Below are positions 14,418 through 31,473 of a DNA stretch of 44,189 nt, one piece after another; positions within the stretch are counted from its first letter, which is position 1; each line of letters opens with the position of its first letter. A program made the translations under genes and the position numbers. The stretch is from Salinicola peritrichatus (lineage in GTDB: Bacteria; Pseudomonadota; Gammaproteobacteria; Pseudomonadales; Halomonadaceae), in assembly GCF_003206715.1 (NCBI RefSeq), contig NZ_PZJU01000028.1:1-44189 (forward strand), in the 5' to 3' direction. The notes below the pieces were generated by a model that saw nothing but the letters and a program-made list of their open reading frames with translations, ran no database searches and was not told the DNA's origin.

Positions 14418-17342
14418 TCAAGGCCCGGCGGCCGTGGCACGCAACGCACCGATTCGAGCCTCCAGGTTCTGCCACGCGGGCTCTCCCGGGGCGAAGCGCG
14501 CCCTCAGATAACCCATCAGGTCGCTTAATTGGGAATCGGAGAATTGCTCCCGAAACGCCGGCATTTCGCCGGCGTTTTCCCCGCCGGCACGAGGCGCCAC
14601 GACACCGTCGAGAATCGCCTGGATGACGTTATCGGGCCGCTCGCTGTGCAGATTGGTATTCAGTGCCAGAGAGGTTTCCGCGCGGGAGAAGACGGCAACC
14701 GTATCAGCGTCGTGACAGGATGCACAGGCACCATTGTACAGGCGCTCGCCGGATTCGAACCCATCGACCGTAGCCGCCGACTTTGCCAGTGTGGCCTCGG
14801 CCATGCGGGCGGCTTCGGCGGTATCGGTGATCGGCAGCAACGAGGCCACGTAGTGCGCGATCGCACGTACATCGCTTTCCGGCAACTCGGCGAGTCCGGC
14901 GACCACCGGTGCCATAGGGCCGGCGGCGACGCCATGATGCTCGGCGCGACCGCCGCGAAGGTAGTCGTACAGGGCGGTCTCGGTCCACGCCACCGGTGCC
15001 TTCGAAAGCGCGTTGAGTGCCGGCGCCTCCCAACCGTCGACCAGCGCGCCGCCCAAGTAGTCGTCGCCGTTTTTTTCCGCCCCCATGGCGTTGCGCGGCG
15101 AATGGCAGGCACTGCAATGGCCCGCGCCCTCGGCGAGGTAGGCGCCGCGGTTCCACAGCGCACTGCGCGTCGGGTCCGGGATGAAGGGCTTGGGATCGTG
15201 ATAGAGCGCGTTCCAGCCGGCCATCAATCCGCGGATATTGAACGGAAAGCGCAGATCGTTTTCCACCGCCGGGGCTGCCGTCGGCGGCTGCGTCATCAGG
15301 TAGGCGTAGAGCGACTGCATGTCGGCGTCGCTCAACTTGGCAAAAGCGGTGTAGGGAAAGGCAGGATAGAGATGGCGACCGTCGCGGCTGACGCCGTGAC
15401 GCATGGCGCGCTCGAAGGCGGCGTAGGACCAGTTGCCGATGCCGGTGCTCTCATCCGGCGTGATATTGGTGCTGTAGAGCGTGCCGAACGGGGTATCGAA
15501 GGCGCGCCCGCCGGCGTTGGTCTCGCCGTCCGGCCCGGCGGTGTGACATACCGCACAGTCGCCCGCCTCGGCCACCAGCCGTCCGCGTTCGATCGCCGCC
15601 TGGGAGTAGAGACCGGCCGCCGGATGGGGAATCGGTGCCATCGCCGGCTGCCAGGGCATCATGCCGGCAGCGACGCTCCCCATCGCCACTAGCGAGGCCG
15701 CCGCGCCGAGCCAGCCCTTGCGCCGCCACGGCCGCCGCGCCGGCAGGCCTGGATCGGGACGAGTATCGGCCGCCTCGCCCTGGAGCGCGGCGCGAACGCG
15801 AGCCGGCGTGAAAGGCGGTTGGCGAAAGCGCTGACCGGTGGCATCGAACAGCGCATTGGCGATGGCCGCCGTTCCGGGGGCGAGCGTCGCTGCGCTCAAG
15901 CGCCAGGAAGGCGTTCCACCTTCGATCCTGGCAGCCGGCAGTCTCGGCGATGTCGTCGGCGGCGTTCCGAGGGGCGCTATCATGGCATCGATTGCCGGAG
16001 GGTCGCCGGCGCTTGCGGCGTCGCGCCCCCACTGGTCGAAGTCGCCGGATTGTGTAACCAGCGGAAAGGATGGCTTGAGCAATGCGTGCTCGAGGGCCTT
16101 GCCCAGCGCGATCTCGTCCGGCGCTGCGCCGGCATCCTGTCCGACGACGACCCGCGACAGCGCCACCTCGCCAGTGACCGGGTCGACGGCCACGTCGGCG
16201 ATCCAGGCGGCGCGCGTGCCGGCCTCGAGGCTGTCCTGCACGTTCGGCACGTGGCAGTAGGCAAATCCTCTTCCGTGCAGCAGCCCTTCGACGGGAATGC
16301 GCGCCCGATCCCGATGGCGAACCGGGGAACGCCACTGCGCGCGCTCGCGCACGGCCTCGATCAGGCGTTTGCCGCGCGTGTCCTCCATCAGTTCCAGACG
16401 CAGCTCCAGCGGGTCGCGCTGTCGCTCGTCGGCCCATTCGTCGAGGAAGGATTCCTCGGCAAAAAGCCGAGGGGTATCGTCCCCGTCGGGAGCGTCATCG
16501 GCCTCGGGATGAGCACCGACATACGGAGAAGCCCTCTCCGCCGACGAATTCCCCGCCGGCTCGCGGCACTCGGGCCGGGTCAGCATCAACGCCACCACGG
16601 GGGCTGCTCCGGGAGAGGCCGTTTTCAACGCGAGCCGCTCGGGAGCCGCCCCCTCTCCCCACCCGCGAACCACCCAGCGCTGCGCCATTCCCAGAGCGTC
16701 GACGTCGCGCTGATAGTTCGGGTCGAGCCGGATCGCTATCGGCAGGCCGATACGTTGAGAGACGAAAGCGGCATCGGCGGCGGCATCGTCGCTCGCCAGG
16801 CGCCCGAGCCCGGTTCCGCTCCTGTCACTGAACAGCTCGATCGCGTCCGGCGCCAGCGACAGCAGCATCGACAGATCCTGGCGCAACACCTCGGGCGTCG
16901 CCGTTCCCACCCACAGGCGCGCCGCGTGCGTCGTGCAGTCGGCGACCACCCACGCCTCGGATTCCCCCCACCCCAGTCGACTGGGCCAGCGGTAATGGCG
17001 GGAAAGCACGCCTGCGACGCGATCGCTGGATTCGACGCTCGTATTCCCTCGAATGTCGGGAGACGTCCAATGCACACGCAAACGATCGGCGGCCAGCGCG
17101 GCCAAGGAAGGCTCCGTGGCGACCACGGCAACGAAGTCCCCCGCCTCGATGACAGTGATTCTCTCGCCCAGCGAGCCCAGCGACGCGCGATCGACATCCA
17201 ACAGCCGCGCGCTCTCGAATCGCCCTTCATGCCAACGGTAGAAAGCGGGACGGATCACCGCCGCATAGTGCACCGGACCGCTGACGCTATCCGCGGCACA
17301 GGGCAACGGGCCCGCGACAGGCTGCGAAATCCTGCCGCTCAA
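14418..17342 (-). CDS. nicB: NicB-like protein: degenerate molybdopterin domain fused to a three-haem cytochrome c
   Basis: A 974-residue protein if started at TTG 17342, which overlaps the nicA stop as TTGA. The open frame extends further but only as a shadow of nicA; a GTG at 17273 is an alternative. Residues about 15-500 resemble the xanthine-dehydrogenase-type molybdopterin subunit, but the first roughly 210 residues of that domain are missing. At about residue 484, where relatives have the GVGE glutamate, it reads RLSAAT. A helix near 543-563 anchors a periplasmic part with CAVCH (about 596), CSACH (743) and CASCH (873). In Pseudomonas putida NicB the same fusion passes electrons from nicotinate hydroxylation to the respiratory chain. 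Here catalysis probably falls to the separate subunit at 27606-29849, with this protein as electron conduit. Confidence 0.85.
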   Translation of the reverse strand: MSGRISQPVAGPLPCAADSVSGPVHYAAVIRPAFYRWHEGRFESARLLDVDRASLGSLGERITVIEAGDFVAVVATEPSLAALAADRLRVHWTSPDIRGNTSVESSDRVAGVLSRHYRWPSRLGWGESEAWVVADCTTHAARLWVGTATPEVLRQDLSMLLSLAPDAIELFSDRSGTGLGRLASDDAAADAAFVSQRIGLPIAIRLDPNYQRDVDALGMAQRWVVRGWGEGAAPERLALKTASPGAAPVVALMLTRPECREPAGNSSAERASPYVGAHPEADDAPDGDDTPRLFAEESFLDEWADERQRDPLELRLELMEDTRGKRLIEAVRERAQWRSPVRHRDRARIPVEGLLHGRGFAYCHVPNVQDSLEAGTRAAWIADVAVDPVTGEVALSRVVVGQDAGAAPDEIALGKALEHALLKPSFPLVTQSGDFDQWGRDAASAGDPPAIDAMIAPLGTPPTTSPRLPAARIEGGTPSWRLSAATLAPGTAAIANALFDATGQRFRQPPFTPARVRAALQGEAADTRPDPGLPARRPWRRKGWLGAAASLVAMGSVAAGMMPWQPAMAPIPHPAAGLYSQAAIERGRLVAEAGDCAVCHTAGPDGETNAGGRAFDTPFGTLYSTNITPDESTGIGNWSYAAFERAMRHGVSRDGRHLYPAFPYTAFAKLSDADMQSLYAYLMTQPPTAAPAVENDLRFPFNIRGLMAGWNALYHDPKPFIPDPTRSALWNRGAYLAEGAGHCSACHSPRNAMGAEKNGDDYLGGALVDGWEAPALNALSKAPVAWTETALYDYLRGGRAEHHGVAAGPMAPVVAGLAELPESDVRAIAHYVASLLPITDTAEAARMAEATLAKSAATVDGFESGERLYNGACASCHDADTVAVFSRAETSLALNTNLHSERPDNVIQAILDGVVAPRAGGENAGEMPAFREQFSDSQLSDLMGYLRARFAPGEPAWQNLEARIGALRATAAGP

Positions 17343-17836
17343 GTTGCGCTCTCCCCATCGGCCACGTCGGCGAGATTCAGCTCGATGGCCAGCGTCGCCG
17401 CCTGCAGGATCGCGATGTGCGTGCCGCAGCGGCAGAGATTGTGCTTCAGCGCCGCGATGATCTGCTGCCGATCCGGTCGTTGGAACTGATTGAGCAAGCC
17501 CCTGACGGTCATGATCATGCCGTTCAGGCAGTAACCGCATTGTGCCGCCTGACACTCGACGAATGCCGTCTGCACCGGATCCGGCCGCCCATCGCGGACG
17601 AGCCCTTCGAGCGTCGTGACATGGCGACCGGCGACCGCACCGAGTGATATCACGCAGGAACGCGCCGCCCGGCCGTCGACCAGCACGCTGCAGGCGCCAC
17701 ACTGACCGAGACCGCAACCGTACTTCGGGCCATTGAGGGCGAGATCGTTGCGCAGTACATGCAGCAACGGCGTGGTGGGGTCGAGCGCGAACCGCTCCGA
17801 CCGACCGTTGACCGTAAGGTTGATGCAATCCGCCAT
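17339..17836 (-). CDS. nicA: Nicotinate dehydrogenase-type 2Fe-2S subunit NicA
   Basis: A 165-residue protein starting at the ATG at 17836 (MADCINLTVNGR), the normal start of this family; the frame upstream has no homology. Plant-type cluster motif CGLGQCGACSVLVDG in the first half and the second cluster motif CGYCLNGMIMT followed by CRCGTH in the second half, as in all small subunits of molybdenum hydroxylases. It carries electrons from the molybdenum site. Overlaps the nicB-like gene by four bases (TTGA), so the two are coupled. Divergent from nicC, with a 380-base regulatory region between them. Confidence 0.93.
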   Translation of the reverse strand: MADCINLTVNGRSERFALDPTTPLLHVLRNDLALNGPKYGCGLGQCGACSVLVDGRAARSCVISLGAVAGRHVTTLEGLVRDGRPDPVQTAFVECQAAQCGYCLNGMIMTVRGLLNQFQRPDRQQIIAALKHNLCRCGTHIAILQAATLAIELNLADVADGESAT

Positions 17837-17911
17837 GCCGTTCTCGTTTGGATTTGTTGGCAAGCCAGGCAGTGCACTGGTCCGGACACTGCCATGGTGC
17901 AATCGGATCAG

Positions 17912-17940
17912 CTTAAAGCCCATATGGTGCATACACACAA
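17912..17940 (-). promoter_or_regulatory. Candidate nicA promoter with operator in the spacer
   Basis: Read on the minus strand: TTGTGT (17940-17935), a 17-base spacer and TTTAAG (17917-17912). The spacer contains the plus-strand motif ATATGGTGCATAC (17922-17934) with the dyad TATG-GTG-CATA. A repressor bound there would block RNA polymerase. The hexamers are weak matches, so this is a candidate. Confidence 0.45.
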
Positions 17941-18090: not shown

Positions 18091-18120
18091 TTGTTGACTC
18101 CAACAGATATGGTGTATACG
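18091..18120 (+). promoter_or_regulatory. Candidate nicC promoter with operator over the -10
   Basis: TTGTTG (18091-18096), 18-base spacer and TATACG (18115-18120); TTGACT at 18094 is an alternative -35. The motif ATATGGTGTATAC at 18107-18119 differs at one position from the motif in the nicA promoter and overlaps the -10. About 100 bases upstream of the nicC ATG. Confidence 0.45.
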
Positions 18121-18216
18121 TTTTTAAGCCGAGCCGGATCGTGCCGGCGATGTCTGGCATTGACGACAACAACGTTTGACTACGGCAAGACAAAGAAAAC
18201 GAGGAAGGAGCGGTAG

Positions 18217-19386
<1,170 letters not shown>

Positions 19387-19657: not shown

Positions 19658-20644
19658 ATGATTAAGCAACTCATCGCCGCCGGTATCTTCGCTGGCGGCC
19701 TGGGCCTCGGCTTGTCGGCTCAGGCCGACCCGCTCAACCTGAACCTATGTGGTGGCAGTCCCAACGGCTTGTGGCAATTGCTCGGTGTCGGCATGGATGG
19801 TGTCCTCAAGGCCGACGATCCGGGCTCCAGCGTCACCTATCAGACTTCATCCGGCGGCTTCGCCAATATCCTCCAGATGCAGGGAGACACCTGTGACCTG
19901 GCGATCGCGCACGCCGGTGAGGCGATGAAGGCTCTCTCCGGGGAGGCTCCCTTCCCGCAGAAGGTCGACAATTTCCGAGCCATCAGCGTGCTCTACAATT
20001 GGGCTCCGATGCAGTGGGTCATGACCAAGGACTTCGCCGACGAATACGGCATTCATTCGCTACAGGATATCGCCGACAAGAAACCGCCGTTGCATCTGGT
20101 GCTCAACCGTAAGGGCATACTGACATCAATGGTCGGCGAGTCGTCGCTGGCGACGCTCGGCGTAACGCCAGAAGACATCGAATCCTGGGGCGGTAGCGTG
20201 GTGCATCAAGGCTCAGCCGTGGCCACCGAGCTGGTGCAGAACCGGCGCGCCGATATGTGGGCCAACGAGACCTTCGTCGGTAGTAGTGCGATCAGCAGCA
20301 TGGCTGAAAACCGTCCGATGACGTTGTTGGAAGTGCCCGACAACGTCATCAAGGCAATGGAAAAAGAGTACGGTGACAGCTCTTATACCGTGCCTGCCGA
20401 CGCCTACACCTGGCTGGATCAGCCGATACATACCCATACCGCCGCGGCGCTATTGGTTGTACCGGCCAGCATGCCGGACGACGAGGCCTACCGCATCACC
20501 AAGGATCTGATCGATCACCTTGATGTGATGCAGGGGGTGCATCCGGCCATGAAACAGTTGACGCCGCAGACACTTCTTGCCCAGTCGGTGGTCGAACTGC
20601 ATCCCGGTGCCAAACGCGCCTATGAGGAAGCCGGCCTGCTCTGA
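19658..20644 (+). CDS. TAXI-family TRAP transporter substrate-binding protein
   Basis: A 328-residue periplasmic protein with a signal peptide (MIKQLIAAGIFAGGLGLG... cleaved after AQA, mature DPLNLNLCGG). The segments GGSPNGLWQLLGVGMDGVL and TYQTSSGGFANILQMQGDTC match the start of the TAXI (TRAP-associated extracytoplasmic immunogenic) family. Such proteins deliver carboxylates to fused TRAP permeases, encoded here directly downstream. Position between nicC and the nadC homologue suggests a pyridine carboxylate such as quinolinate or nicotinate as ligand. ATG at 19658 has GGAGAA about eight bases upstream. Confidence 0.92.
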   Translation: MIKQLIAAGIFAGGLGLGLSAQADPLNLNLCGGSPNGLWQLLGVGMDGVLKADDPGSSVTYQTSSGGFANILQMQGDTCDLAIAHAGEAMKALSGEAPFPQKVDNFRAISVLYNWAPMQWVMTKDFADEYGIHSLQDIADKKPPLHLVLNRKGILTSMVGESSLATLGVTPEDIESWGGSVVHQGSAVATELVQNRRADMWANETFVGSSAISSMAENRPMTLLEVPDNVIKAMEKEYGDSSYTVPADAYTWLDQPIHTHTAAALLVVPASMPDDEAYRITKDLIDHLDVMQGVHPAMKQLTPQTLLAQSVVELHPGAKRAYEEAGLL

Positions 20645-20726: not shown

Positions 20727-22682
20727 ATGACTCGCGATAATTTCACCCGCCTTGCCAACGGCCTGCTCTCGACGGGACGCCGACGCAAGCCTGACGGCCC
20801 GTTTGGCTGGCTGCTCAAAGGCTACGGCGCAGCCATTGCGCTCTGGGTGGTCTGGACGACGGTCTTCTCCACAGCAGACGTGCTAGCACTCACCATCGTC
20901 TTTCTGACCTTGATGCTGGTGCTGGTATTCTTCCTGGTCGCTCCCAACGATAAGCCCGGCACCGAACTCCCCAATCCACTCGACTGGCTATTGATTGCAG
21001 TCAGTGCAGTCAGCGCAATATTCTTCATCGGTTCGATCGGTGACTTGTCCGATCGCATCAGTCTGCTGACACCACTGACGATGGCCCAGCTCGGCTTCGG
21101 CGTCATCATCACGCTGCTGACACTGGAGGCCACTCGTCGCACCGTGGGACTCGGCCTGACACTGATCGCAGCGGTTTTCATCGTCTACAACCTCCAGGGC
21201 CATTTGCTAGCCGGAATATTCCGCCACGGCTATATTTCACTGTCCTACTTCATCGACGTCAACGTCTACACCAGCGACGGACTGTTCGGCGTGCCGGTTC
21301 GCGTCGCCGCGACCTACGCGTTCCTGTTCGTGATGTTCGGAACCTTCCTCGATCGGGTTCGCGGCGGTGATTTCTTCTTCAACCTGGCTGCGAGGCTGAC
21401 CGGCCGCGCGATCGGCGGTCCGGCCAAGGTGGCGGTCATCTCTTCCGGGCTGTTCGGCACCGTTTCCGGCAGCCCCACTGCCGACGTCGTCACCACCGGT
21501 TCGATTACCATCCCGCTGATGCAGCGCTTGGGTTTCTCGCGCAATCTGGCCGCGGGGGTCGAAGTCGCCGCCTCCACCGGCGGCAGCATCTTGCCTCCGG
21601 TCATGGGCTCAGTGGCCTTCATCATGGCCGAGTACACCGGCATCGCCTACAGCGAGATCGTGATCGCCGCTCTGGTACCGGCACTGCTCTACTACGTCGG
21701 CGTGCTGATCCAGGTCCATCTTCATTGCAAGCGACATGGCCTCGGGCGACTCGACCCCGACGAGATTCCCTCGTGGTCCAAAGTAATGCGGGGGGCCTGG
21801 CTATTCCTGATCCCATTGGCGGCGATGGTAATCCCGCTGGTCATCGGCTACTCACCAACGTTCGTGGCACTGTTCGGCACAGCGGCGATCGTGATTTGCT
21901 CGCTGTTCAGCCGCCAGCATCGCTTGACGCCCCGCCCACTGCTGGATGCCCTGGCCACGACCACCTTCCGCATGGTCGGCGTGACCGCCGCCTGTGCGGC
22001 CGCCGGGCTGGTCATCGGAGGAATCACCATGACCGGGCTGGCGACCAAGTTCTCATCGATCGTGATGCTGTTGGCTGGTGACAGTACCTTCATGACCTTG
22101 TTCTTCACGGCACTGATCACCATCATCCTGGGCATGGGCATGCCGACGGCAAGCGCTTATATTCTGGCGGCCGTACTGCTCGGGCCAACGTTGGTCAATA
22201 CCCTGGGCATCGCCACCATGTCGGCCCATCTGTTCATTCTCTATTATGCTGTACTGTCGGCGCTGACGCCCCCGGTGGCGGTCGCCGCCTACGCCGCTTC
22301 GGCAATCTGCGGCGGCAACCCGGTCGGCATCGCCACCCAGGCAGTGAAACTGGCGGTATTTGCCTTCGTATTTCCGTTCGCCATCGTCTACAACCCCAGC
22401 CTCACTCTCCACGGCACGCTGCTAAGCTGCCTCTTGGAAATCATGCAGGCCTTCATCGCCACGCTGGCGATCGCCATCGCCAGCGAGGGCTATCTGCGGC
22501 ACAAGCTGTCCCCCTTCGTCCGGTTGGCATTGATGGCCGGCGGCCTGACGCTGCTATCGCCCAGCGGCTGGCCAGTGTTGGTCGGACTCATCATGGTCAC
22601 CGGTGCTTTGGTGACCCAACTGCGTGGTTGCACCATCAGCACCCTCGCCCAAAACGCGTTATCCCACGACAGAAACAAGTAA
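20727..22682 (+). CDS. Fused TRAP transporter permease (4TM + 12TM, DctQM-like)
   Basis: A 651-residue membrane protein. The ATG at 20727 is chosen because GGGGA lies eight bases upstream; an in-frame ATG at 20709 is possible. The first 170 residues hold the small-subunit helices; the rest is the large DctM-like domain with KVAVISSGLFGTVSGSPTADV, STGGSILPPVMGSVAFIMAE and GMGMPTASAYILAAVLLGP, the re-entrant loop motifs of TRAP permeases. Works with the TAXI binding protein as a sodium-driven carboxylate importer. Stop codon 13 bases before the nadC homologue. Confidence 0.95.
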   Translation: MTRDNFTRLANGLLSTGRRRKPDGPFGWLLKGYGAAIALWVVWTTVFSTADVLALTIVFLTLMLVLVFFLVAPNDKPGTELPNPLDWLLIAVSAVSAIFFIGSIGDLSDRISLLTPLTMAQLGFGVIITLLTLEATRRTVGLGLTLIAAVFIVYNLQGHLLAGIFRHGYISLSYFIDVNVYTSDGLFGVPVRVAATYAFLFVMFGTFLDRVRGGDFFFNLAARLTGRAIGGPAKVAVISSGLFGTVSGSPTADVVTTGSITIPLMQRLGFSRNLAAGVEVAASTGGSILPPVMGSVAFIMAEYTGIAYSEIVIAALVPALLYYVGVLIQVHLHCKRHGLGRLDPDEIPSWSKVMRGAWLFLIPLAAMVIPLVIGYSPTFVALFGTAAIVICSLFSRQHRLTPRPLLDALATTTFRMVGVTAACAAAGLVIGGITMTGLATKFSSIVMLLAGDSTFMTLFFTALITIILGMGMPTASAYILAAVLLGPTLVNTLGIATMSAHLFILYYAVLSALTPPVAVAAYAASAICGGNPVGIATQAVKLAVFAFVFPFAIVYNPSLTLHGTLLSCLLEIMQAFIATLAIAIASEGYLRHKLSPFVRLALMAGGLTLLSPSGWPVLVGLIMVTGALVTQLRGCTISTLAQNALSHDRNK

Positions 22683-22695
22683 GGACATTCGAATC

Positions 22696-23568
22696 ATGAC
22701 CACCGAAAACCGCAACGCCCCCCAAGCCTGGCAACTCGACCCGTTGATGCTCGACGATCAGATCCGCGCCTTTCTGCGCGAAGATATCGGCTACTTCGAC
22801 TTTACCGCCACGCTGCTGATCGATAGCGAACTGACCGGCCGCTTCGAGATGCGTGCCCGCGAATCAATGACACTGGCTGGCTTGGCCATCGCCGCCCGCG
22901 TATTCACGCTCTACGATGCGGGTGTTCAAGTCGAGGTACTCGCCCATGATGGCCAGCGGGTCGAGAAAGGCACCACACTGCTCAAGATCGAGGGTCCGGC
23001 GCGCAGTATCCTGACGGCCGAGCGTACCGCACTCAATCTGGTTCAACACCTTTCAGGCATCGCTACCGTCACCGCGACCTACGTCGAACGCATCGCCGAT
23101 ACCAAGGCCCAGTTGATCGACTCGCGCAAGACCACGCCAGGCCTGCGTGCGATGGAAAAGCACGCAGTGACCTGCGGAGGTGGCCGCAACCATCGCCTAG
23201 GTCTCGACAACGGCATCATGTTGAAGGACAACCATATCGCCGTGTGCGGCAGCATCACTGCCGCCGTGGCCCGCGCCAAGGCCAGCGTGCCGGTATTGAC
23301 CAAGGTCGAGGTCGAATGCGACCGCTATGATCAGGTCGAAGAAGCTCTGGCCGCTGGTGCCGATGTGATCATGTTCGACAACATGTCGATCGAGGAAATG
23401 CAACGCTCGGTGAATCTGGTCGATGGTCGTGTACTGCTGGAAGCCTCCGGCGGCGTGCGCCTGGAAACCATTCGCGCCATCGCCGATACCGGCGTCGATT
23501 TCATCTCGGTCGGCCGCATCACCCAATCCTCTCCGGCGCTGGATATCGGTCTGGACGACGCGGAGTGA
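22696..23568 (+). CDS. nadC: Nicotinate-nucleotide pyrophosphorylase (quinolinate phosphoribosyltransferase) homologue
   Basis: A 290-residue NadC. Substrate residues are all visible: TAERTALNLVQHLSGIAT, DSRKTTPGLRAMEKHAVTCG, GGRNHRLGLDNGIMLKDNHI, then VEVE, MFDNM, EASGG and DFISVG, which line the quinolinate and PRPP pockets. NadC makes nicotinate mononucleotide, CO2 and PPi from quinolinate and PRPP. It is not accompanied by nadA or nadB; instead it lies 13 bases after a TRAP importer and seven bases before the PhnN-phosphorylase gene. This points to a catabolic, not biosynthetic, role. ModD-type paralogues of molybdate loci are the main alternative, but no molybdate transporter is present. 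Confidence 0.92.
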   Translation: MTTENRNAPQAWQLDPLMLDDQIRAFLREDIGYFDFTATLLIDSELTGRFEMRARESMTLAGLAIAARVFTLYDAGVQVEVLAHDGQRVEKGTTLLKIEGPARSILTAERTALNLVQHLSGIATVTATYVERIADTKAQLIDSRKTTPGLRAMEKHAVTCGGGRNHRLGLDNGIMLKDNHIAVCGSITAAVARAKASVPVLTKVEVECDRYDQVEEALAAGADVIMFDNMSIEEMQRSVNLVDGRVLLEASGGVRLETIRAIADTGVDFISVGRITQSSPALDIGLDDAE

Positions 23569-23575
23569 GTCGGAG

Positions 23576-25639
23576 ATGAGTTCGCAGACTCAGTCACGCG
23601 GTAAATTGGTATTGGTTGTCGGCCCCAGCGGGGCCGGCAAGGATACCCTGATGGAGCGTGCGCTGACCGACTACGCCTGCACCCAGCACGTGATCCTGAC
23701 ACGTCGGGTGATCACACGCCCCGCCGATGCGGGAGGTGAAGATCATCAAGCCATGGACGAGTCGGATTTCGACGATTCGCTGGCAGCCGGTGAGTTTCTG
23801 ATCCACTGGGATGCCCATGGTCTGCGCTATGCGCTGCGCGCGGACATTCGCAACGAGATAGACCAAGGTCGCACGGTACTGGCCAACGTATCGCGCAAAG
23901 TGATTGGCGCCATCGTCGAACTGGGATTGCCGGTCGCGGTCATCGAAGTCACGGCGTCACGCGAAGTTCGCGCCCGGCGTTTGTCGATGCGGGGTCGCGA
24001 GACGGCCGGGGATATTCTCGCCCGTCTCAAGACACTGGATTGGCAGGCACCGGCCGGCATCGCCCATTACCGCATCGACAATGGCGCCGATCTGACCAGC
24101 GGCGTCGAACGTTTTCTGGTCACCCTGGCCAGTGCCTGCGGCGGCGACACGCCGATTCGACACCTGCCTATCGATACCGGCCCTCGGCTGATTGGATTTC
24201 TCTCGCTTCGCCATCCGTTGCGCGATGCGATCCAGGCGTTATCCGCTCCCCGCGTCGAGATCAATATTCTCGGCCGCCCACTGGTGCTGGAAGTTCAATG
24301 GGTCGACGACGATCATTGGCTCCCCAGCGATGCCATCGGGTTGTCCCGAGGCACGCTGGCGCGCCTCGGCCTGATCGCTGGCATGCCACTGCAACTGCAG
24401 CCGGCACCACCGCCGGCCGGCTCGGTTGCTCTGCGACGCAAGCTTCGCGGTTACTCGCTGAACGAGGAAGAATTCTTCCGTGTGGTTCACGATATCGCCG
24501 ACAACCGCTTCGACGAGGCATCGACCGGAGCGTTTCTGGCCAGCCTGGCCAATCATCTCGACGATACCGAGATCATCGAGCTGACGCGGGCGCGGGCGCG
24601 AATTGCCCAGACATTGCACTGGAACCGCCCAATGGTGGTCGACAAGCACTCGATGGGGGGATTGCCCGGCAGCCGTATCACGCTGATCGTGATTCCCATC
24701 GTCGCTGCTCATGGCCTGACGATCCCCAAGGCTTCCTCCCGTGCGATCACGTCTCCGGCGGGCACGGCCGATACCATGGCGTTGTTTGCCGATGTCGAAC
24801 TCGGCCCTGACGACGTGCGACGCGTCGTCAATGGCGCCAACGGCTGCATCGTGTGGAACGGGCGTCTGTCGCATACCCCCTTTGACGACATGACGAATGC
24901 CATCGTGCGGCCGTTGGATCTGGATTCGGCGCGCATGAGCGTCGCCTCGATCCTGTCCAAGAAACTCGCCGCCGGCGTCACCCATCTGGTCGTCGACCTG
25001 CCCACCGGGCCGCAGGCGAAGCTGCAGACGCTGGACAAGGCCGAGGAGCTCAAGCAATTGATGGAAAGCGTCGGCGCGGCGCTCGGCATGCAGGTCCTGG
25101 CGCGCATCACCGACGGCACGCAGCCGGTCGGTAAGGGAATCGGCCCCAACCTGGAAGCGCGCGATGTGCTGCAGGTGCTCGATAACGCCCCCGATGCTCC
25201 TCGGGATCTGCGCGACAAGGCGCTCGATTTCGCCGGCGCCCTGCTCGACTGGGCGCCGGACATCGCACCGGGCCAAGGCCGTGCGCGGGCCGAGGCGCTG
25301 CTCGCCGGCGGCCACGCCAGGGCCCAATTCGAACGGATCGTCGATCTCCAGGGGCGTCGTCAGCCGCCCGCCGCTCCCGGCGCTTTCTGGGCCGACATCG
25401 AAGCCCAGCGCTCGGGCCGGATCCGCCACGTGGATATCTGGCGGCTCAACTCAATCGCCCGTCTGACCGGGGCTCCCGGAGACAGCCTGGCCGGACTCGA
25501 CCTCGCGGTGCGCAAGGGCGACGACGTGCGCTCGGGCCAGCCGCTCTACCGCCTGTTCACATCCACCCAGCATGCCCTCGAAAGAGTGGTTGCCTTCGCC
25601 CGTGCCGGCAACGCCTTCGAGATCGCCGAGGAGCCATGA
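23576..25639 (+). CDS. Fusion of PhnN (ribose 1,5-bisphosphokinase) and AMP-phosphorylase-type nucleotide phosphorylase
   Basis: A 687-residue fusion starting at ATG 23576, seven bases after nadC. Residues 1-185 are PhnN/guanylate-kinase-like: P-loop GPSGAGKDT at 16-24, then ILTRRVITRPADAGGEDHQ and the RARRLSMRGRE lid. PhnN makes PRPP from ribose 1,5-bisphosphate and ATP. Residues about 195-275 are the N-terminal domain found in archaeal AMP phosphorylases and not in DeoA. Residues 280-687 are the phosphorylase core with DKHSMGGLPGSR near 357 and KASSRAITSPAGTADT near 388. AMP phosphorylase splits nucleoside 5'-monophosphates with Pi, giving base and ribose 1,5-bisphosphate, exactly the PhnN substrate. 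In this operon the natural nucleotide may be NaMN from NadC. I do not know of a described example of this fusion. Confidence 0.9.
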   Translation: MSSQTQSRGKLVLVVGPSGAGKDTLMERALTDYACTQHVILTRRVITRPADAGGEDHQAMDESDFDDSLAAGEFLIHWDAHGLRYALRADIRNEIDQGRTVLANVSRKVIGAIVELGLPVAVIEVTASREVRARRLSMRGRETAGDILARLKTLDWQAPAGIAHYRIDNGADLTSGVERFLVTLASACGGDTPIRHLPIDTGPRLIGFLSLRHPLRDAIQALSAPRVEINILGRPLVLEVQWVDDDHWLPSDAIGLSRGTLARLGLIAGMPLQLQPAPPPAGSVALRRKLRGYSLNEEEFFRVVHDIADNRFDEASTGAFLASLANHLDDTEIIELTRARARIAQTLHWNRPMVVDKHSMGGLPGSRITLIVIPIVAAHGLTIPKASSRAITSPAGTADTMALFADVELGPDDVRRVVNGANGCIVWNGRLSHTPFDDMTNAIVRPLDLDSARMSVASILSKKLAAGVTHLVVDLPTGPQAKLQTLDKAEELKQLMESVGAALGMQVLARITDGTQPVGKGIGPNLEARDVLQVLDNAPDAPRDLRDKALDFAGALLDWAPDIAPGQGRARAEALLAGGHARAQFERIVDLQGRRQPPAAPGAFWADIEAQRSGRIRHVDIWRLNSIARLTGAPGDSLAGLDLAVRKGDDVRSGQPLYRLFTSTQHALERVVAFARAGNAFEIAEEP

Positions 25640-25643
25640 CGAC

Positions 25644-26810
25644 ATGCCGTCGACGGGTATCAACAACGCCGCCACCGTGGACGCCTTCCAGCGCCTGATC
25701 GGCAACCTGCTGAAGCAGGATCCCGAGCATCGCAAACCGCCGGTAGTCACCTTCTGGTGCGGGGCGGGATTCTCCAAGGCGTGGGATCCTCGCTCCCCCA
25801 CCGATGGCAAGCTGTTTGCCATCGATCTCGACGATATCCGCGACTTCCCCAACCTTCAGCACGTGATGCACGTCATCGGCTGGGAGGATTACCGGCATCT
25901 GGATTTCGAGCGCTTCAAGAACCTGCGCTACGTGCTCGACATGCAGGTGCGCTACCCGGACATTCGCAACCGCTATTTCGACGACCAGAACCTGCGCTTG
26001 AGCATCAGCGAGCTGCGCACGCTGGTGATGCGGCGCTTCACTGCCGCCTGCGATATCCACAACGTCGACGACGCCACGTTACGCTTCACCTCGCCCCACG
26101 ACAGCGACGGGCAGCGGGCGATCACGCAATTCTTCGCCGCCCTGGAGGATCGCGCGGGCCATGCGGGGCTGGGCGCGAGCTGGCCGCTCTATCACTTCCT
26201 GACGACCAACTACGATTTCACCATCGAAACCATCCTGGAGCACGTCTATCGCCAGGACGCACCGGTGTTCGGGCGTCTCTATCGCGGCGTGACGCCACAG
26301 CGGATATGTGGCGGTACCATCTGGGAACACCTGCCGCGTACCGTCGACCGCAACGTGATCAAGATCAACGGTGGCTTCGAGATTCTGCCGACCCGGGAAG
26401 GCTTCGACTTCGAGTATCGCCAGCGCAGCGACGCGCAGATCCGCCAGCAACCGCCGTTGCTGATCCTGCCGTCCCAGGTCCAGGATTACGACGAATCCTA
26501 CTTTCATCAGGTCTTCCCCAAGGCGGTGCGCCTGCTGCGGGAAACCGACGTGTTGGTGATCGTCGGCTACAGCATGCCGCACGAGGATTCCCTGGTGCGC
26601 TTCATTCTGCGCCAGCTCGCCGAAAGCCCGTTCGACGCCACGGGCAAGCATGTGTTCGTCATCGACACCAAGAATCACGCCACCATCAAATCGCGCCTGG
26701 AGGAGATGTTCTTCTACCTGCCGCGCACGGGCTGGCCGCGGGAGCACTACTACAGCGGCCGCTTCGAGGATTTCTGCCAGCGCATCAACGAGACCGGTGG
26801 CGTGTCATGA
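25644..26810 (+). CDS. SIR2-like domain protein of unknown role in the pyridine operon
   Basis: A 388-residue protein; ATG 25644 follows GAGGAG and lies five bases after the phosphorylase stop. Sirtuin-type NAD-binding features are visible: VTFWCGAGFSKAWD with GAGFS near residue 40, FLTTNYDFTIETILEHVY near 190, and VLVIVGYSMPHEDSLVRFIL near 310. Where SIR2-like enzymes have a KLHGS catalytic histidine, this protein reads IKINGGFE near residue 242, so histidine is replaced by asparagine. Many SIR2-like proteins of this branch are NADase effectors in phage defence, but here it is the last gene of a pyridine-nucleotide operon. A role in binding or cleaving a pyridine nucleotide is possible; NAD hydrolysis by the usual mechanism seems doubtful. 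Confidence 0.72.
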   Translation: MPSTGINNAATVDAFQRLIGNLLKQDPEHRKPPVVTFWCGAGFSKAWDPRSPTDGKLFAIDLDDIRDFPNLQHVMHVIGWEDYRHLDFERFKNLRYVLDMQVRYPDIRNRYFDDQNLRLSISELRTLVMRRFTAACDIHNVDDATLRFTSPHDSDGQRAITQFFAALEDRAGHAGLGASWPLYHFLTTNYDFTIETILEHVYRQDAPVFGRLYRGVTPQRICGGTIWEHLPRTVDRNVIKINGGFEILPTREGFDFEYRQRSDAQIRQQPPLLILPSQVQDYDESYFHQVFPKAVRLLRETDVLVIVGYSMPHEDSLVRFILRQLAESPFDATGKHVFVIDTKNHATIKSRLEEMFFYLPRTGWPREHYYSGRFEDFCQRINETGGVS

Positions 26811-26856: not shown

Positions 26857-27348
26857 TCAATCGCCGGAAGCGTTCATCTTCTCCAGCAAGTGCATCAGCG
26901 CAATGCGCTCGGCGGGATTGAGTTCGCCCATGGTCAGATCGGAGATGCGCTTGGCCCGGGGCACCATGGTGGCGACCAACTCCCGTCCAGAGTCGGTGAT
27001 ATCGACGATCACCTTGCGCTGGTCCTGGGGGTCCGAGGAGAGCGTCACCCATTCCCGCGCCTTGAGCCGCTTGATCACGCCGCGGATGGTCGCCGGATCG
27101 ATGGCCGTCGCCTTGACCAGGTCAGTCAGCGCACTTGGACCGTAGTCCATGATCGTGCACAGCGTGACGAACTGGATCGCCGTCAGCTGCCTGTCGCAGC
27201 TTTCCCGCTGGAAGATGGCGGTATGACGCTGATAGGCGCGGCGCAGGAGATGTCCGACCTGTTCGGAAAATTCGTAATCCTGCTGATGGGGCGTCGGAGT
27301 CGTGGAATCGCTGGACGCCTCGTTGATACGACTGGCTTCGGATGGCAT
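26857..27348 (-). CDS. MarR family regulator, NicR-like
   Basis: A 163-residue regulator; the ATG at 27348 has AGGAG seven bases upstream. Residues 30-150 form the MarR winged helix: LTAIQFVTLCTIMDYGPSAL, then DLVKATAIDPATIRGVIKRL (recognition helix) and SDPQDQRKVIVDITDSGREL (wing). Length and position next to molybdenum hydroxylase genes match NicR of P. putida, which represses nic genes and responds to 6-hydroxynicotinate. It is convergent with the SIR2-like gene and divergent from the molybdopterin subunit. A motif shared by its own and the nicA/nicC promoters fits autoregulation. NicR assignment is by context and is less sure than the MarR family. Confidence 0.85.
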   Translation of the reverse strand: MPSEASRINEASSDSTTPTPHQQDYEFSEQVGHLLRRAYQRHTAIFQRESCDRQLTAIQFVTLCTIMDYGPSALTDLVKATAIDPATIRGVIKRLKAREWVTLSSDPQDQRKVIVDITDSGRELVATMVPRAKRISDLTMGELNPAERIALMHLLEKMNASGD

Positions 27349-27415
27349 ATGACAAACTCCTGGCGACAAAGGAGAAAATTCCGCACCGGCTTGAGATAGG
27401 GCGCAGGCACTATAG

Positions 27416-27427
27416 TTTTGTACAAAA
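27416..27427. promoter_or_regulatory. Palindrome TTTTGTACAAAA between the MarR and molybdopterin genes
   Basis: A perfect 12-bp palindrome 69-80 bases upstream of the MarR start. A related GTAC-centred sequence, TTTCGTACAAGC, occurs at about 27530 closer to the other gene. Either could be a regulator site; they are also in very AT-rich DNA, so chance is possible. Confidence 0.4.
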
Positions 27428-27431
27428 ATCC

Positions 27432-27447
27432 TACACCATTTGGTCAA
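27432..27447 (-). promoter_or_regulatory. Third copy of the ATGGTGTA motif, next to a TTGACC -35 of the MarR gene
   Basis: On the minus strand TTGACC (27447-27442) is followed two bases later by ATGGTGTA (27439-27432), the core of the motifs in the nicA and nicC promoters. A possible -10 is GTACAA after an 18-base spacer. The match is limited to eight bases. Confidence 0.4.
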
Positions 27448-27605: not shown

Positions 27606-29849
27606 ATGCCGATGACCCTGCCCGATCGCCAGCGACTGCTCGAGGGCACCGATATGCTGGTGGTCTATCGCGATCCCGTGATCCCGCCCAAACCCGCCCC
27701 CGGACAGCCCGGCACGCATTCGGATTTCGTGCCGACAGAACCGGAGCTCTTCATTGCGCTGCTGGCGGATGGCCGATTCCTGGCCTTCAACGGCCACGTC
27801 GATCTGGGCACCGGCATTCGTACCGCGCTGACGCAGATCGTCGCCGAAGAGCTCGACCTGGCGATGGATCGTGTGCAGATGGTGCTGGGCAACCCGTTCG
27901 AGGTTCCCAACCAGGGACCGACCATCGCCAGCGCCAGCATCCAGATCACGGCCCAGCCACTCAGGCGCGCCGCCGCCCAGGCGCGGCATCACTTGCTCGC
28001 CAAGGCGGCCGAGTGGCTGAATTGCCCGTTGGAGACGCTCCGCGTGGACGATGGCGTGATTCGCGCTCCGAATGGCGCAACGCTGACTTATGAAGAACTG
28101 CTACGTGGCGAGCGGCAGGCGTTGCGACTCGACGAACAGACCCCCACCAAGCCGAGCCACGACTATCATCTGGTCGGCCGGAATGCCGCACGCGTCGATA
28201 TCCCCGCCAAGACTCGCGGCGAGTTCGTCTACGTCCACGATGTCCGGCTATCCGATATGCTGCACGGCCGCGTGGTGCGACCGCCTTATGTCGGCTATGA
28301 CAGCGGAGATTTCGTCGGTTGCAGCCTCCTCGAAGTCGACCGCGCCTCGGTCGCCGGCTTCCCGGGACTCGTCGACGTCGTGGCCGAGGGCGACTTCGTG
28401 GGGGTCGTGGCCGAACGCGAGGAGCAGGCCGCTGCCGCCGCCAGGAAGCTCAAGGTGAGCTGGCGGAAGCTGCCCCGGCTGGCGGAACTGGACGATCTCG
28501 AAACCGCGTTGCGTGCCCAACCGGCCAAGCGCCGCCCCCTGCTCGAGCAGGGCGACGTCGAAGCGGCCTTCGCAGCCGCCCCGGAGGTCATCGAGCGCCG
28601 CTACGTCTGGCCCTACCAGTTGCATGGTTCTATCGGCCCTTCGTGCGCGGTGGCGGACTACCGCGAAGAGCGGCTGGTCGTCTATTCCGGCACCCAGAAT
28701 CCCCATAGCCTGCGGGCCGATCTGGCGCGCCTGTTGGCGCTCGACGAAGGCAATATCGAGATTCGCCGTCACGAGGCCGCGGGGTGCTACGGTCGCAACT
28801 GCGCCGATGACGTTGGCGCCGACGCGGCATTGCTCTCCCGGGCCGTGGGTCGTCCGGTCCGCGTCCAGCTCGACCGCGCCCAGGAACACGGCTGGGAGCC
28901 CAAGGGAACGGCGCAACTGATGGAGGTTCGTGGCGCGCTGGATGCAGATGGCGAGCTGGCCGCATACGATTTCGTGACCCGCTACCCCTCCGACGACGCC
29001 CCCACCCTGGCGCTGTTACTCACCGGCGCCCAATCGCCCAACGACGTGCCGTTCCAGATGGGCGACCGTACCTCGGTGCCGCCCTACGCCTATCCCCATC
29101 AGCGAATCGGCTGCGATGATGTCGCCCCGATCGTGCGCGCCTCCTGGCTTCGAGGGGTTTCGGCGCTGCCCAACTGTTTTGCCCACGAGAGTCTGATCGA
29201 CGAGTTGGCCGAACGCGCCGGTGCCGATCCGGTCGGCTTTCGGTTACGCTACCTAGAGCCACGAGCGCAGGCATTGGTCTCGGCGGTCGCCGAGCGCGCG
29301 GGCTGGTTCCGGCGCACACGTCGTACAACCGACGATGGCGCCTGGCTGGAAGGCCACGGTTTTGCCTATGGTCATTACGTGCACAGTAAATTCCCGGGGT
29401 TCGGTGCCGCCTACGCCGCCTGGGCGGTGACGCTGCAGGTCCATCGCGACAGCGGGCGGATACGCGTCACGCAGGTTACCGTGGGCCAGGATGCCGGCTT
29501 GATGATCAACCCGGCCGGCGTACGCCACCAGGTGCACGGCAATATCATTCAAACGCTGAGCCGCACGCTCAAGGAACAGGTGAGTTTCGAACACGGCCTG
29601 CCGACCAGCCGCGAATGGGGCGGCTACTCGATCTTGCGCTTCGACGAGCTGCCGCCGATCGACGTCCTGCTGCTGGACAACCCGGACGAAGCGCCGCTCG
29701 GCGTCGGCGAATCCGCCTCCCTGCCCGGCGCGCCCGCCATCGCCAGTGCGCTGTTCGACGCCACCGGCATGCGTTTTCGGCGCCCTCCGTTTACCCCCGA
29801 GCGGGTACGCGCGACGCTTACGGAAGCCTTGCACCCCATGCCCAACTGA
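27606..29849 (+). CDS. Molybdopterin-binding catalytic subunit of a nicotinate dehydrogenase-type hydroxylase
   Basis: A 747-residue protein without signal peptide or cytochrome part, homologous to the molybdenum domain of NicB. Visible sites are GHVDLGTGIRTALTQIVAEE near residues 62-81, the dioxo-Mo region RRHEAAGCYGRNCADDVGAD, TQVTVGQDAGLMINP, and GVGESASLPGAPAIASALFD with the presumed catalytic glutamate at about 702. It therefore has every element that the nicB-like gene at 14418-17342 lacks. I infer it supplies the active site for hydroxylation of nicotinate (or quinolinate) at C6, with NicA and the haem protein taking the electrons. GAGGAG lies 11 bases before the ATG; an in-frame ATG at 27612 is also possible. 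Confidence 0.9.
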   Translation: MPMTLPDRQRLLEGTDMLVVYRDPVIPPKPAPGQPGTHSDFVPTEPELFIALLADGRFLAFNGHVDLGTGIRTALTQIVAEELDLAMDRVQMVLGNPFEVPNQGPTIASASIQITAQPLRRAAAQARHHLLAKAAEWLNCPLETLRVDDGVIRAPNGATLTYEELLRGERQALRLDEQTPTKPSHDYHLVGRNAARVDIPAKTRGEFVYVHDVRLSDMLHGRVVRPPYVGYDSGDFVGCSLLEVDRASVAGFPGLVDVVAEGDFVGVVAEREEQAAAAARKLKVSWRKLPRLAELDDLETALRAQPAKRRPLLEQGDVEAAFAAAPEVIERRYVWPYQLHGSIGPSCAVADYREERLVVYSGTQNPHSLRADLARLLALDEGNIEIRRHEAAGCYGRNCADDVGADAALLSRAVGRPVRVQLDRAQEHGWEPKGTAQLMEVRGALDADGELAAYDFVTRYPSDDAPTLALLLTGAQSPNDVPFQMGDRTSVPPYAYPHQRIGCDDVAPIVRASWLRGVSALPNCFAHESLIDELAERAGADPVGFRLRYLEPRAQALVSAVAERAGWFRRTRRTTDDGAWLEGHGFAYGHYVHSKFPGFGAAYAAWAVTLQVHRDSGRIRVTQVTVGQDAGLMINPAGVRHQVHGNIIQTLSRTLKEQVSFEHGLPTSREWGGYSILRFDELPPIDVLLLDNPDEAPLGVGESASLPGAPAIASALFDATGMRFRRPPFTPERVRATLTEALHPMPN

Positions 29850-29906
29850 CGCATAACGAGGGTCAATATTCGTCACGCCATCGGTTGGCGCCAGGAACTT
29901 CACCTT

Positions 29907-30878
29907 ATGCAATATCTCGATCTGCAAGTCCTCGAAGCCGCTCTCGAGTGGGCCAATGCCGGCGAAACGATCTGGCTCTGCAGCGTGCTCGCCACTTTCG
30001 GCTCGTCGCCGCGGGAGCCCGGCTCGATGCTGGTCGCCCGGGCGGATGGTTCGCACGTCGGTTCGCTCTCCGGCGGCTGTATCGAGGAGGATTTCCTGGG
30101 CAAGATCGCCGAAGGGCATTTTGGCGATGCGCTATCGGTGGTTCGCTACGGTGAAGGGGCCGACGAGTCCCCCCAGGTTGCGCTGCCCTGCGGCGGCATC
30201 CTCGACGTGCTGGTCGAGTGCCTGACACCGGACACCGCGAACCTGACCCATCTCGAAGTACTGCACGCCACCTTGCTGGGGCAGCGCTCGCTGGTACGCC
30301 GGATCGATCTGGAAAGCGGTCGCAAACGCTTCGTCGAAGCCGACGAAAACGGCCCGCGTGTCGAGCGCGACGGCCCGATCGTCCAGCTCCGCGTCGGCCC
30401 GGCGCTACGGCTGATCATCGCCGGCATCTCGCCGGTGTCGCAATTCTGCGCCGAGTTCGCCCGCGCCCTCGGGTTCGAAGTGATCGTTTGCGATCCCCGG
30501 GACGAAGCGCGCCGGGATTTCCCTGTCGACGGCGTCGAGGTGCAATCGGTACTGCCGTCGCTGTTCATCGCTTCAGGTGGCTGCCACGCCGCCACGGCGG
30601 TAGTCGCGCTGACCCACGACCCGCGCATCGACGACCTGGCGATGATCGAGGCGGTGCGCACGCCGGCTTTCTACATCGGCGTGATGGGTTCGAAGCGTAC
30701 CTCCGCCAAGCGCGCCGAGCGGCTCAAGCGCTCCGGCGGCCTGGACGACGACGCCATCGCCAGGCTGCACATGCCGATCGGTCTCGACCTGGACAGCAAG
30801 ACCCCGGCCGAAATCGCCCTGGCGGTGGTCGCCGACATCCTGCGCGTGCGTCGCGGCAAGGCGCGCCATGAGCTGTGA
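29907..30878 (+). CDS. XdhC family molybdenum-cofactor insertion chaperone
   Basis: A 323-residue XdhC/CoxI protein. N-terminal XdhC_CoxI segment GSSPREPGSMLVARADGSHV followed by GSLSGGCIEEDF with the conserved cysteine, ALPCGGILDVLVE in the middle, and a C-terminal Rossmann domain ending in FYIGVMGSKRTSAKRAERL and MPIGLDLDSKTPAEIALAV, which are family hallmarks. XdhC proteins carry and sulfurate molybdenum cofactor for xanthine-dehydrogenase-type enzymes. It follows the molybdopterin subunit by 57 bases and overlaps the next gene by 11, so it is dedicated to that enzyme. Confidence 0.94.
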   Translation: MQYLDLQVLEAALEWANAGETIWLCSVLATFGSSPREPGSMLVARADGSHVGSLSGGCIEEDFLGKIAEGHFGDALSVVRYGEGADESPQVALPCGGILDVLVECLTPDTANLTHLEVLHATLLGQRSLVRRIDLESGRKRFVEADENGPRVERDGPIVQLRVGPALRLIIAGISPVSQFCAEFARALGFEVIVCDPRDEARRDFPVDGVEVQSVLPSLFIASGGCHAATAVVALTHDPRIDDLAMIEAVRTPAFYIGVMGSKRTSAKRAERLKRSGGLDDDAIARLHMPIGLDLDSKTPAEIALAVVADILRVRRGKARHEL

Positions 30879-31473
30879 TGCCGAGCGTCGCGAGGTGGTC
30901 GCGCTGGTCATGGCCGCCGGCGTGGCCAGTCGCTTCGGCAGCGACAAACGCCGCCACGTCATGGCGGATGGCCGCACGATGCTGGCGACGATCCTCGGGG
31001 CGATCCTTCCCGCCTATCCACGGGTATGTCTCGTCGTGCGCCCCGGCGAGCCGCTTGCCTGGTTGGATTCAGAGCTCGTCGGCACACTCCGATGCCTGGA
31101 AGCGCCGCATGCCGAGCGCGGTTTGGGAGCCAGCCTGGGCGATGCCTTTCGTGAACTGAACCGGCACGGCGAGACGGCGGTTGCCGCTGCGGTCATCCTC
31201 GCCGACATGCCATGGCTCACGATGCGAACCTGCGAGCGGCTCAATCGCCACGCCGAGGCCGGGCGGATCGTGATCCCGCAGCACGCCGGCCGCAGAGGTC
31301 ATCCGGTGCTGTTCGGCAGAAACTTTTGGGAAGAGCTTGCTAGTCTCGAAGGTGGCGAAGGCGCTAGAGAGGTCGTGGCTCGGCATCGCCAAGCGATGGT
31401 TCTGATCGATGTCGACGACGCCGGCATCTGGCGCGACGTGGACTTTTCAGGGGATCTGCCCGACGGCGGCTAG
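30868..31473 (+). CDS. MocA/MobA-like nucleotidyltransferase for molybdenum cofactor
   Basis: A 201-residue NTP-transferase. Nucleotide loop LVMAAGVASRFGSDKRR (canonical LAAG-S-R-G--K) at the N terminus, ILADMPWLTMRTCERL with the metal-binding aspartate, and GRRGHPVLFGRNFWEEL, typical of MocA proteins that add CMP to molybdopterin. Overlap with xdhC by 11 bases shows a common transcript. It would make the cytosine-dinucleotide cofactor used by NicB-type enzymes. Its TAG stop codon lies in the terminal repeat of the inverted-repeat element that follows, so its last residues may have been set by that insertion. Confidence 0.9.
   Translation: MSCDAERREVVALVMAAGVASRFGSDKRRHVMADGRTMLATILGAILPAYPRVCLVVRPGEPLAWLDSELVGTLRCLEAPHAERGLGASLGDAFRELNRHGETAVAAAVILADMPWLTMRTCERLNRHAEAGRIVIPQHAGRRGHPVLFGRNFWEELASLEGGEGAREVVARHRQAMVLIDVDDAGIWRDVDFSGDLPDGG

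Follow-up and report, generated by a model that had tools for sequence, protein, structure and literature searches.

The stretch of DNA analysed here (the window; 44,189 nucleotides of contig NZ_PZJU01000028.1 from Salinicola peritrichatus) carries nadC, a gene for a quinolinate phosphoribosyltransferase (QPRTase), followed by a gene for a fusion of PhnN with an AMP-phosphorylase-type enzyme. These two genes, referred to below as the module, lie behind the genes of a TAXI/TRAP importer and inside a nicotinate-degradation cluster, with nicC on one side and the gene of a MarR regulator on the other, a neighbourhood that the initial annotation of the window had described correctly. The analysis suggested that the locus is likely a nicotinate-degradation cluster with an entry module for quinolinate, which would run a cycle that recycles phosphoribosyl pyrophosphate (PRPP).

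According to the proposed scheme, quinolinate would be imported by the TRAP-TAXI system and converted with PRPP to nicotinate mononucleotide (NaMN), CO2, and pyrophosphate by NadC, as expected from its family chemistry and its kept contact residues. The phosphorylase half of the fusion would then phosphorolyse NaMN, yielding nicotinate and ribose 1,5-bisphosphate, and the PhnN half, by the chemistry of its family, would rebuild PRPP from the latter and ATP. The predicted net reaction would be quinolinate + ATP + phosphate to nicotinate + CO2 + ADP + pyrophosphate, PRPP acting only as a carrier. The nicotinate would be led to 2,5-dihydroxypyridine by NicAB and NicC, again judging by family chemistry, and in this genome the same NadC would also supply NaMN for NAD from NadA-derived quinolinate. 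The initial annotation had put forward such a cycle from the window alone; most of its steps are now backed by the gene order, the NadC contacts, the altered base site, quinolinate-binding relatives, genomes with neither NadA nor 3-hydroxyanthranilate dioxygenase (3-HAO), and the regulator, whereas the phosphorolysis of NaMN is still predicted.

Conserved gene order and the identity of NadC

The two genes of the module are as follows.

22696-23568, forward strand: nadC, QPRTase of the module-type group (TIGR00078 331 bits, PF01729)
23576-25639, forward strand: PhnN-phosphorylase fusion, proposed NaMN phosphorylase (family models, alignments, and tree)

The open reading frames (ORFs) are separated by seven bases, as first described. 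Their association was found to be widely conserved. Among the loci collected by a search of GTDB genomes with the fusion protein alone (n = 25), nadC stood directly upstream of the fusion in 23. In 22 of these 23 loci the nadC stop lay 28-49 bases ahead of the Walker A motif of PhnN; in the remaining one, L008, the Walker A pattern gave no match and the PhnN match begins 17 bases past the nadC stop. At least five loci (L009, L010, L012, L015, and L027) had distinct ORFs for PhnN and the phosphorylase, arranged as in the fusion. Three plasmid records reached a coverage of 80% or more, and each of them had nadC upstream. The background consisted of 298 other Pseudomonadota genomes, sampled evenly; an AMP-phosphorylase-type gene, called at E 1e-40, was present in 35 of them. 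Of the 29 background loci returned for these 35, 28 had neither NadC nor PhnN within ~1.5 kb of the phosphorylase gene, and the exception (L120) had both.

The window NadC scored 331 bits with TIGR00078 (cut-off 198) and 100 bits with the ModD model (cut-off 179); the identity as ModD was ruled out by these scores together with the conserved contact residues. In porcine QPRTase, side chains that contact the carboxylate, ribose, and phosphate of NaMN have been described (PMC3633916). These contacts were transferred by common motifs and a constant offset of 6, rather than by aligning the porcine sequence, with Gln274 excluded; the corresponding R144, K145, H166, R167, K177, E207, D228, and N229 were invariant in 27 of 27 module NadCs. 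The module NadCs also differed invariantly from the canonical ones, for example in D171, K203, C208, and Q277. From the family chemistry and the kept contacts, the module NadC is predicted to act on quinolinate and PRPP.

On the NadC tree, the canonical NadCs of Gamma- and Betaproteobacteria were set apart by a branch with 100/100 support; on its other side lay the module and Salinicola-type NadCs, along with those of Alphaproteobacteria and of phthalate clusters. In the tree with alphaproteobacterial NadCs, the module NadCs, the Salinicola-type NadCs, and one NadC from a Paracoccus plasmid lay on one side of an 89/78 branch, which is suggestive of a common group. The divergent Azorhizobium proteins L060 and L061, both short of several contact residues, were omitted from the second NadC tree. 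A second nadC was present in Variovorax E3 and in three Pandoraea genomes, and these second copies fell on the canonical side.

A second, biosynthetic nadC, whose absence the initial annotation had named, alongside a lack of induction by pyridine carboxylates, as speaking against the cycle, was not found in the S. peritrichatus genome (rated 100% complete), where the window nadC is the only PF01729 match. Since nadA is present and no other QPRTase was found, the window NadC should also serve NAD synthesis. Seventeen same-genus genomes carried the fusion in three cases, nadC without the fusion in 12, and neither nadC nor nadA in two. In all 12 fusion-less loci nadC occupied the same position, flanked by the symporter gene on one side and the SIR2 gene on the other, and genes for XdhC and MobA lay farther out; no match to NicA, NicB, or NicC was obtained at any of these 12 loci. 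Genes for NicC and NicB-like proteins were present at all four fusion loci of the genus (the window, L003, L004, and L005). No TAXI or TRAP match was found at L004, which has an MFS gene instead. Whether or not the fusion was present, the Salinicola-type loci that were inspected had a SIR2_2-domain protein next to nadC. Because of the position of these NadCs on the tree relative to the canonical ones, a module-type gene seems to have taken the place of the canonical nadC in the genus. In the two genomes with neither gene (G010 and G014; nadC not above the family cut-off), nicotinate phosphoribosyltransferase was present, and these strains are predicted to be nicotinate auxotrophs.

The occurrence of nadC in an aromatic catabolic cluster is known from phthalate clusters, which contain QPRTase genes (phtD) that are not required for phthalate metabolism itself (PMC6051330); the additional QPRTase benefits cells during growth on phthalate. 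The window NadC could, by analogy, be a spare or resistant enzyme for aromatic catabolism, with the fusion as a general nucleotide-recycling partner. We consider this very unlikely. The phthalate-cluster nadC genes formed a branch of their own, and neither PhnN nor a phosphorylase was seen among their annotated neighbours (whose annotation is incomplete), unlike in the module. No phthalate genes were recognised among the annotated neighbours of the module, for which annotation is partial, and the window nadC, as the only copy found in its genome, leaves no spare. A further QPRTase gene of phthalate clusters is ophE. Sphingomonad plasmids with phthalate-type clusters (L077, L078, and L117) carried a related nadC beside the gene of a Rieske protein, which is a different catabolic setting.

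The PhnN-phosphorylase fusion and its base site

Residues ~1-190 of the fusion correspond to ribose-1,5-bisphosphate kinase (PhnN) and residues ~190-687 to the AMP-phosphorylase-type enzyme. The PhnN half scored 169 bits with TIGR02322 (cut-off 156) and had the Walker A motif GPSGAGK. The fold and family of nucleoside monophosphate (NMP; AMP) phosphorylases were confirmed for the second half; however, its score with the AMP-phosphorylase equivalog TIGR03327 was 379 bits, below the cut-off of 535, so it was not filed as an AMP phosphorylase proper. On the phosphorylase tree, all module enzymes, whether fused, encoded by separate ORFs, or from two Pseudomonas genomes (L014 and L016), lay on one side of a 100/100 branch.

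For the comparison of residues, 28 module rows were set against 37 stand-alone ones; the first list had 55 entries, of which 17 were discarded beforehand as fragments or paralogues. The base-binding residues of thymidine phosphorylase are His116, Arg202, Ser217, and Lys221 (PMC2719695). The residues placed on them by alignment, H358, R445, S458, and K462 (R445 being one residue off Arg202), were kept in all rows of both groups. At four other positions the groups were completely separated: R340, N428, H433, and N441 occurred in 28 of 28 module rows and 0 of 37 stand-alone rows, where the letters were M (37), G (37), L (35) or F (2), and I (37), respectively. In addition, S359 was found in all module rows vs. 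C in 36 of 37 stand-alone rows, and S455 in 26 of 28 module rows, with M or L in the stand-alone ones; the two Pseudomonas fusions had the module letters throughout except S455. In human thymidine phosphorylase, S359 aligns with Ser117, S455 with Ile214, and N441 with Tyr199 or an adjacent residue; Ser117 and Ile214 are listed in the active site of that enzyme, Ile214 in the base pocket (PMC2719695). It is plausible that this shift from apolar to basic and polar residues in the base-site region accommodates the carboxylate of nicotinate, and the module-specific set of residues is consistent with the proposed function of the phosphorylase half as a NaMN phosphorylase.

Nicotinate degradation, regulation, and the source of quinolinate

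The other features of the window that bear on the proposed cycle are listed below.

14418-17330, reverse strand: NicB-like molybdopterin and cytochrome c subunit, nicotinate dehydrogenase type, start codon provisional (relatives adjoin NicA/NicC in the nic clusters L155 and L156)
17339-17938, reverse strand: NicA-like 2Fe-2S subunit, start codon provisional (family matches)
18109-18122, forward strand: ATGGTGTATACGTT, possible regulator site 5' of nicC, suggested by copies in other nic clusters
18217-19386, forward strand: NicC, 6-hydroxynicotinate 3-monooxygenase (5eow 577 bits vs. 199 for the next molecule name)
19658-20644, forward strand: TAXI-family TRAP substrate-binding protein, proposed quinolinate receptor (TIGR02122 143.6 bits, cut-off 84)
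20727-22682, forward strand: fused TRAP permease (TIGR02123 570 bits, cut-off 321)
25644-26810, forward strand: SIR2_2-domain protein (PF13289), starting 4 bases past the fusion
26857-27447, reverse strand: BpsR-type MarR regulator (best matches 6pcp/6pco, 1.9e-49; four 6-hydroxynicotinate contacts)
27606-31473, forward strand: molybdopterin-binding hydroxylase subunit, XdhC, and MobA-like maturation genes (MoCoBD relatives by the nic genes in L155 and L156)

A NicD-like hydrolase and an Amdase-type protein had no match in the window and were both present in L003; NicX and NicF were not searched for. The clusters L155 and L156, from genomes of the same family (G111) and the same order (G254), share the symporter, NicB, NicA, NicC, the MarR regulator, and the MoCoBD relatives with the window. 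Unlike the window, they had no TAXI, TRAP, nadC, or fusion gene in the 16-20 kb fetched, and no genome-wide match to the fusion was obtained in either genome at E 1e-40. In the module loci, NicA/NicB-type genes were found within 10 kb in nine of 23 (three Salinicola, three Pandoraea, L022, L024, and L025), a count that omits weaker matches in L006 and L008 and includes some short loci. In Jezberella, a NicB-like gene was located ~13 kb from the module.

The structures 6pcp and 6pco are presumably those of the BpsR study cited next. In BpsR, Tyr15, His23, Arg26, and His32 hold 6-hydroxynicotinate (PMC6837509). All four contacts are in register in the window MarR protein (motif Y-x7-H-x2-R-x5-H), which is predicted to be a BpsR-type regulator binding 6-hydroxynicotinate. 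Among 497 ORFs called in 28 loci (26 with the module), six had the motif, and all six were MarR proteins linked with the module in Salinicola, Azorhizobium, and Paraburkholderia. In the latter two genera the gene adjoins an NMT1-type ABC importer and the module, and no nic gene was recognised in the stretch. The putative site ATGGTGTATACGTT was found exactly in L155 (two places) and L156 and, with two mismatches, 5' of nicC in L003 and L005, which come from two further Salinicola genomes; the third (L004) had no match. No convincing second copy was found ahead of the TAXI gene; for a 15-mer with at most three mismatches, 0.24 matches were expected in the window and two were found. To judge from gene order, nicC and the module may be co-regulated in the window.

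The source of quinolinate was considered for 24 fusion genomes, the genome of L008 being excluded; the 22 module genomes referred to here are these 24 minus the two Pseudomonas. NadA was found in ten of the 24, two of which were the Pseudomonas, and was not found in 14 of the 22 module genomes. Six of these 14 had 3-HAO, and in eight it was not found; seven of the eight had nicotinate phosphoribosyltransferase. Several of the NadA-less genomes are metagenome-assembled and may be incomplete, but no such label is attached to the records of Azorhizobium oxalatiphilum, Pseudolabrys Root1462, and Jezberella. That neither enzyme was found in eight of the 22 module genomes points to imported quinolinate.

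The type of importer near the module differed between loci: TRAP-TAXI, TctC, NMT1-type ABC, or MFS. Quinolinate binding in the submicromolar range has been demonstrated for two TctC proteins, Bug27 and Bug69, and bug27 orthologues adjoin nadC and phnN in Variovorax and Jezberella (Sorci et al., PMC11452294). TctC neighbours were also found in the module loci of both genera in this analysis. The variety of importers and the invariant differences between module and canonical NadCs would fit a NadC that takes another 2-carboxylated heterocycle, so that the cycle decarboxylates that compound; with the NaMN contacts of NadC kept and quinolinate bound by Bug27 and Bug69, we regard this as highly improbable.

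The neighbourhood of phnN, nadC, and bug27 has been interpreted as PRPP supply for NAD metabolism (Sorci et al., PMC11452294). Along these lines, imported quinolinate would end up in NAD by way of NaMN. The only task of PhnN, together with a phosphorylase that uses AMP or other NMPs, would be to provide NadC with PRPP. The lack of detectable NadA in 14 of 22 module genomes is what would be expected of quinolinate salvagers, and in the S. peritrichatus genome, which has nadA, no QPRTase other than the window NadC was found. Nevertheless, this explanation appears unlikely to us. The module phosphorylases are unlike the stand-alone type in the base-site region, a 6-hydroxynicotinate-type regulator stands by the module in three genera, and NicA/NicB-type genes lie within 10 kb in nine of 23 module loci. 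Moreover, drawing PRPP from AMP frees adenine, and PRPP is spent once more when this adenine is salvaged. The main text of the paper by Sorci et al. (PMC11452294) makes no mention of the word "phosphorylase".

Several observations weigh against quinolinate degradation by the PRPP-recycling cycle. The module-type nadC is kept without the fusion in 12 Salinicola genomes, and a purely catabolic role of NadC in S. peritrichatus is unlikely. A plasmid of Paracoccus zhejiangensis carries a module-type nadC without the fusion (L076:9995-10831), just upstream of cobalamin genes. Conversely, the fusion occurs without a nadC neighbour, and with the same R/N/H/N letters, in the two Pseudomonas genomes, each of which carries one canonical nadC elsewhere. 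The activities of the cycle enzymes are predicted from their sequences, the closeness of the altered phosphorylase residues to the base is deduced from the alignment to thymidine phosphorylase, and no published base contact is known to us for R340, N428, or H433. Most module loci had no BpsR motif within the stretch seen (it was present at six of 26). A link of the module with nicotinate degradation is supported by NicB-like proteins scoring at least 499 bits, which were found in 15 of 22 module genomes vs. 16 of 298 sampled genomes, one of which (G310) itself has the module. However, this comparison is biased by the relatedness of the genomes and by the limit of two scored candidates per genome in the phylum sample; its p values of 2e-12, or 6e-10 with the module genomes hand-collapsed to 13 lineages, are overstated because the background was uncollapsed and less fully scored. 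In the seven module genomes without such a gene, nicotinate may be degraded by a different route, or the module may have another function. No recognisable nicotinate gene was present among the six annotated neighbours at L012, a Pseudolabrys-type locus.

Relation to known systems

The Bordetella-type salvage of quinolinate by NadC with Bug69 and Bug27 resembles the proposed cycle in that a binding protein captures external quinolinate, NadC makes NaMN, and phnN stands by nadC and bug27 (PMC11452294); however, NaMN goes to NAD in that system, whereas the phosphorylase of the module is proposed to free nicotinate and PhnN to rebuild PRPP. In the archaeal NMP shunt, the phosphorolysis of 5'-nucleotides yields a base and ribose 1,5-bisphosphate (PMC9700705). 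The archaeal enzyme (AMP phosphorylase TK0352, PDB 4ga4/4ga5) has the same fold and belongs to the same family as the phosphorylase half; there, ribose 1,5-bisphosphate goes to ribulose 1,5-bisphosphate and Rubisco, whereas the module would convert it back to PRPP, and the residues of the base-site region differ. According to the family model, PhnN of the C-P lyase pathway carries out the same ATP-dependent step from ribose 1,5-bisphosphate to PRPP. In that pathway the ribosyl handle comes from ATP, serves the cleavage of phosphonates, and is recovered after the bond is cleaved, whereas the handle considered here would come from PRPP and serve decarboxylation. The bacterial degradation of quinolinate via 6-hydroxyquinolinate also reaches 2,5-dihydroxypyridine and proceeds by direct hydroxylation of the ring, with no nucleotide intermediate. 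The proposed cycle would share its substrate and differ from it by the nucleotide intermediate.

The enzyme families involved are already known; searches of the open-licence PMC literature turned up neither their combination nor the proposed cycle. In that literature, no paper was found that brings together quinolinate, PhnN, and the phosphorylase, and, among the matches listed, no title concerned the phosphorolysis of NaMN and no degradation of quinolinate by such a cycle was seen. On balance, we favour the view that PRPP serves here as a true catalyst: the transient N-ribosylation of an aromatic N-heterocycle would lead to its decarboxylation, a dedicated NaMN phosphorylase would release the product, and a linked kinase would restore PRPP for one ATP. 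The module, spreading with exchangeable importers, would turn the terminal enzyme of quinolinate-based NAD synthesis to degradation, with one NadC in both roles in Salinicola. If this is true, quinolinate would have a third fate besides NAD synthesis and ring hydroxylation, NaMN phosphorylase would be a new enzyme activity, and PRPP would act as a catalytic carrier instead of a consumed donor. It would also explain nadC in some bacteria with no visible source of quinolinate and shift the published reading of nadC, phnN, and bug27 from NAD supply to carbon and nitrogen catabolism. Structures are known for the families of both key proteins, so that a coupled assay could test the claim directly.

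Some further observations concern the surroundings of related genes. PADLOC did not match the SIR2_2 protein of the window (25644-26810), nor was an informative relative found in the PDB. Near the module of several Burkholderiales loci, its place is taken by an FRG-domain protein (PF08867; PADLOC candidate PDC-S15). The two Pseudomonas fusions have genes for an MFS transporter and an NMT1-type binding protein as neighbours. The Sphingobium plasmids L080 and L081 carry stand-alone phosphorylase genes beside those of PRPP synthetase and an MBL-fold hydrolase, a separate family context. Both Azorhizobium loci have a related gene 3' of the fusion; in L007 (12175-14319) it encodes a methyl-accepting chemotaxis protein, which perhaps senses the same substrate as the module.

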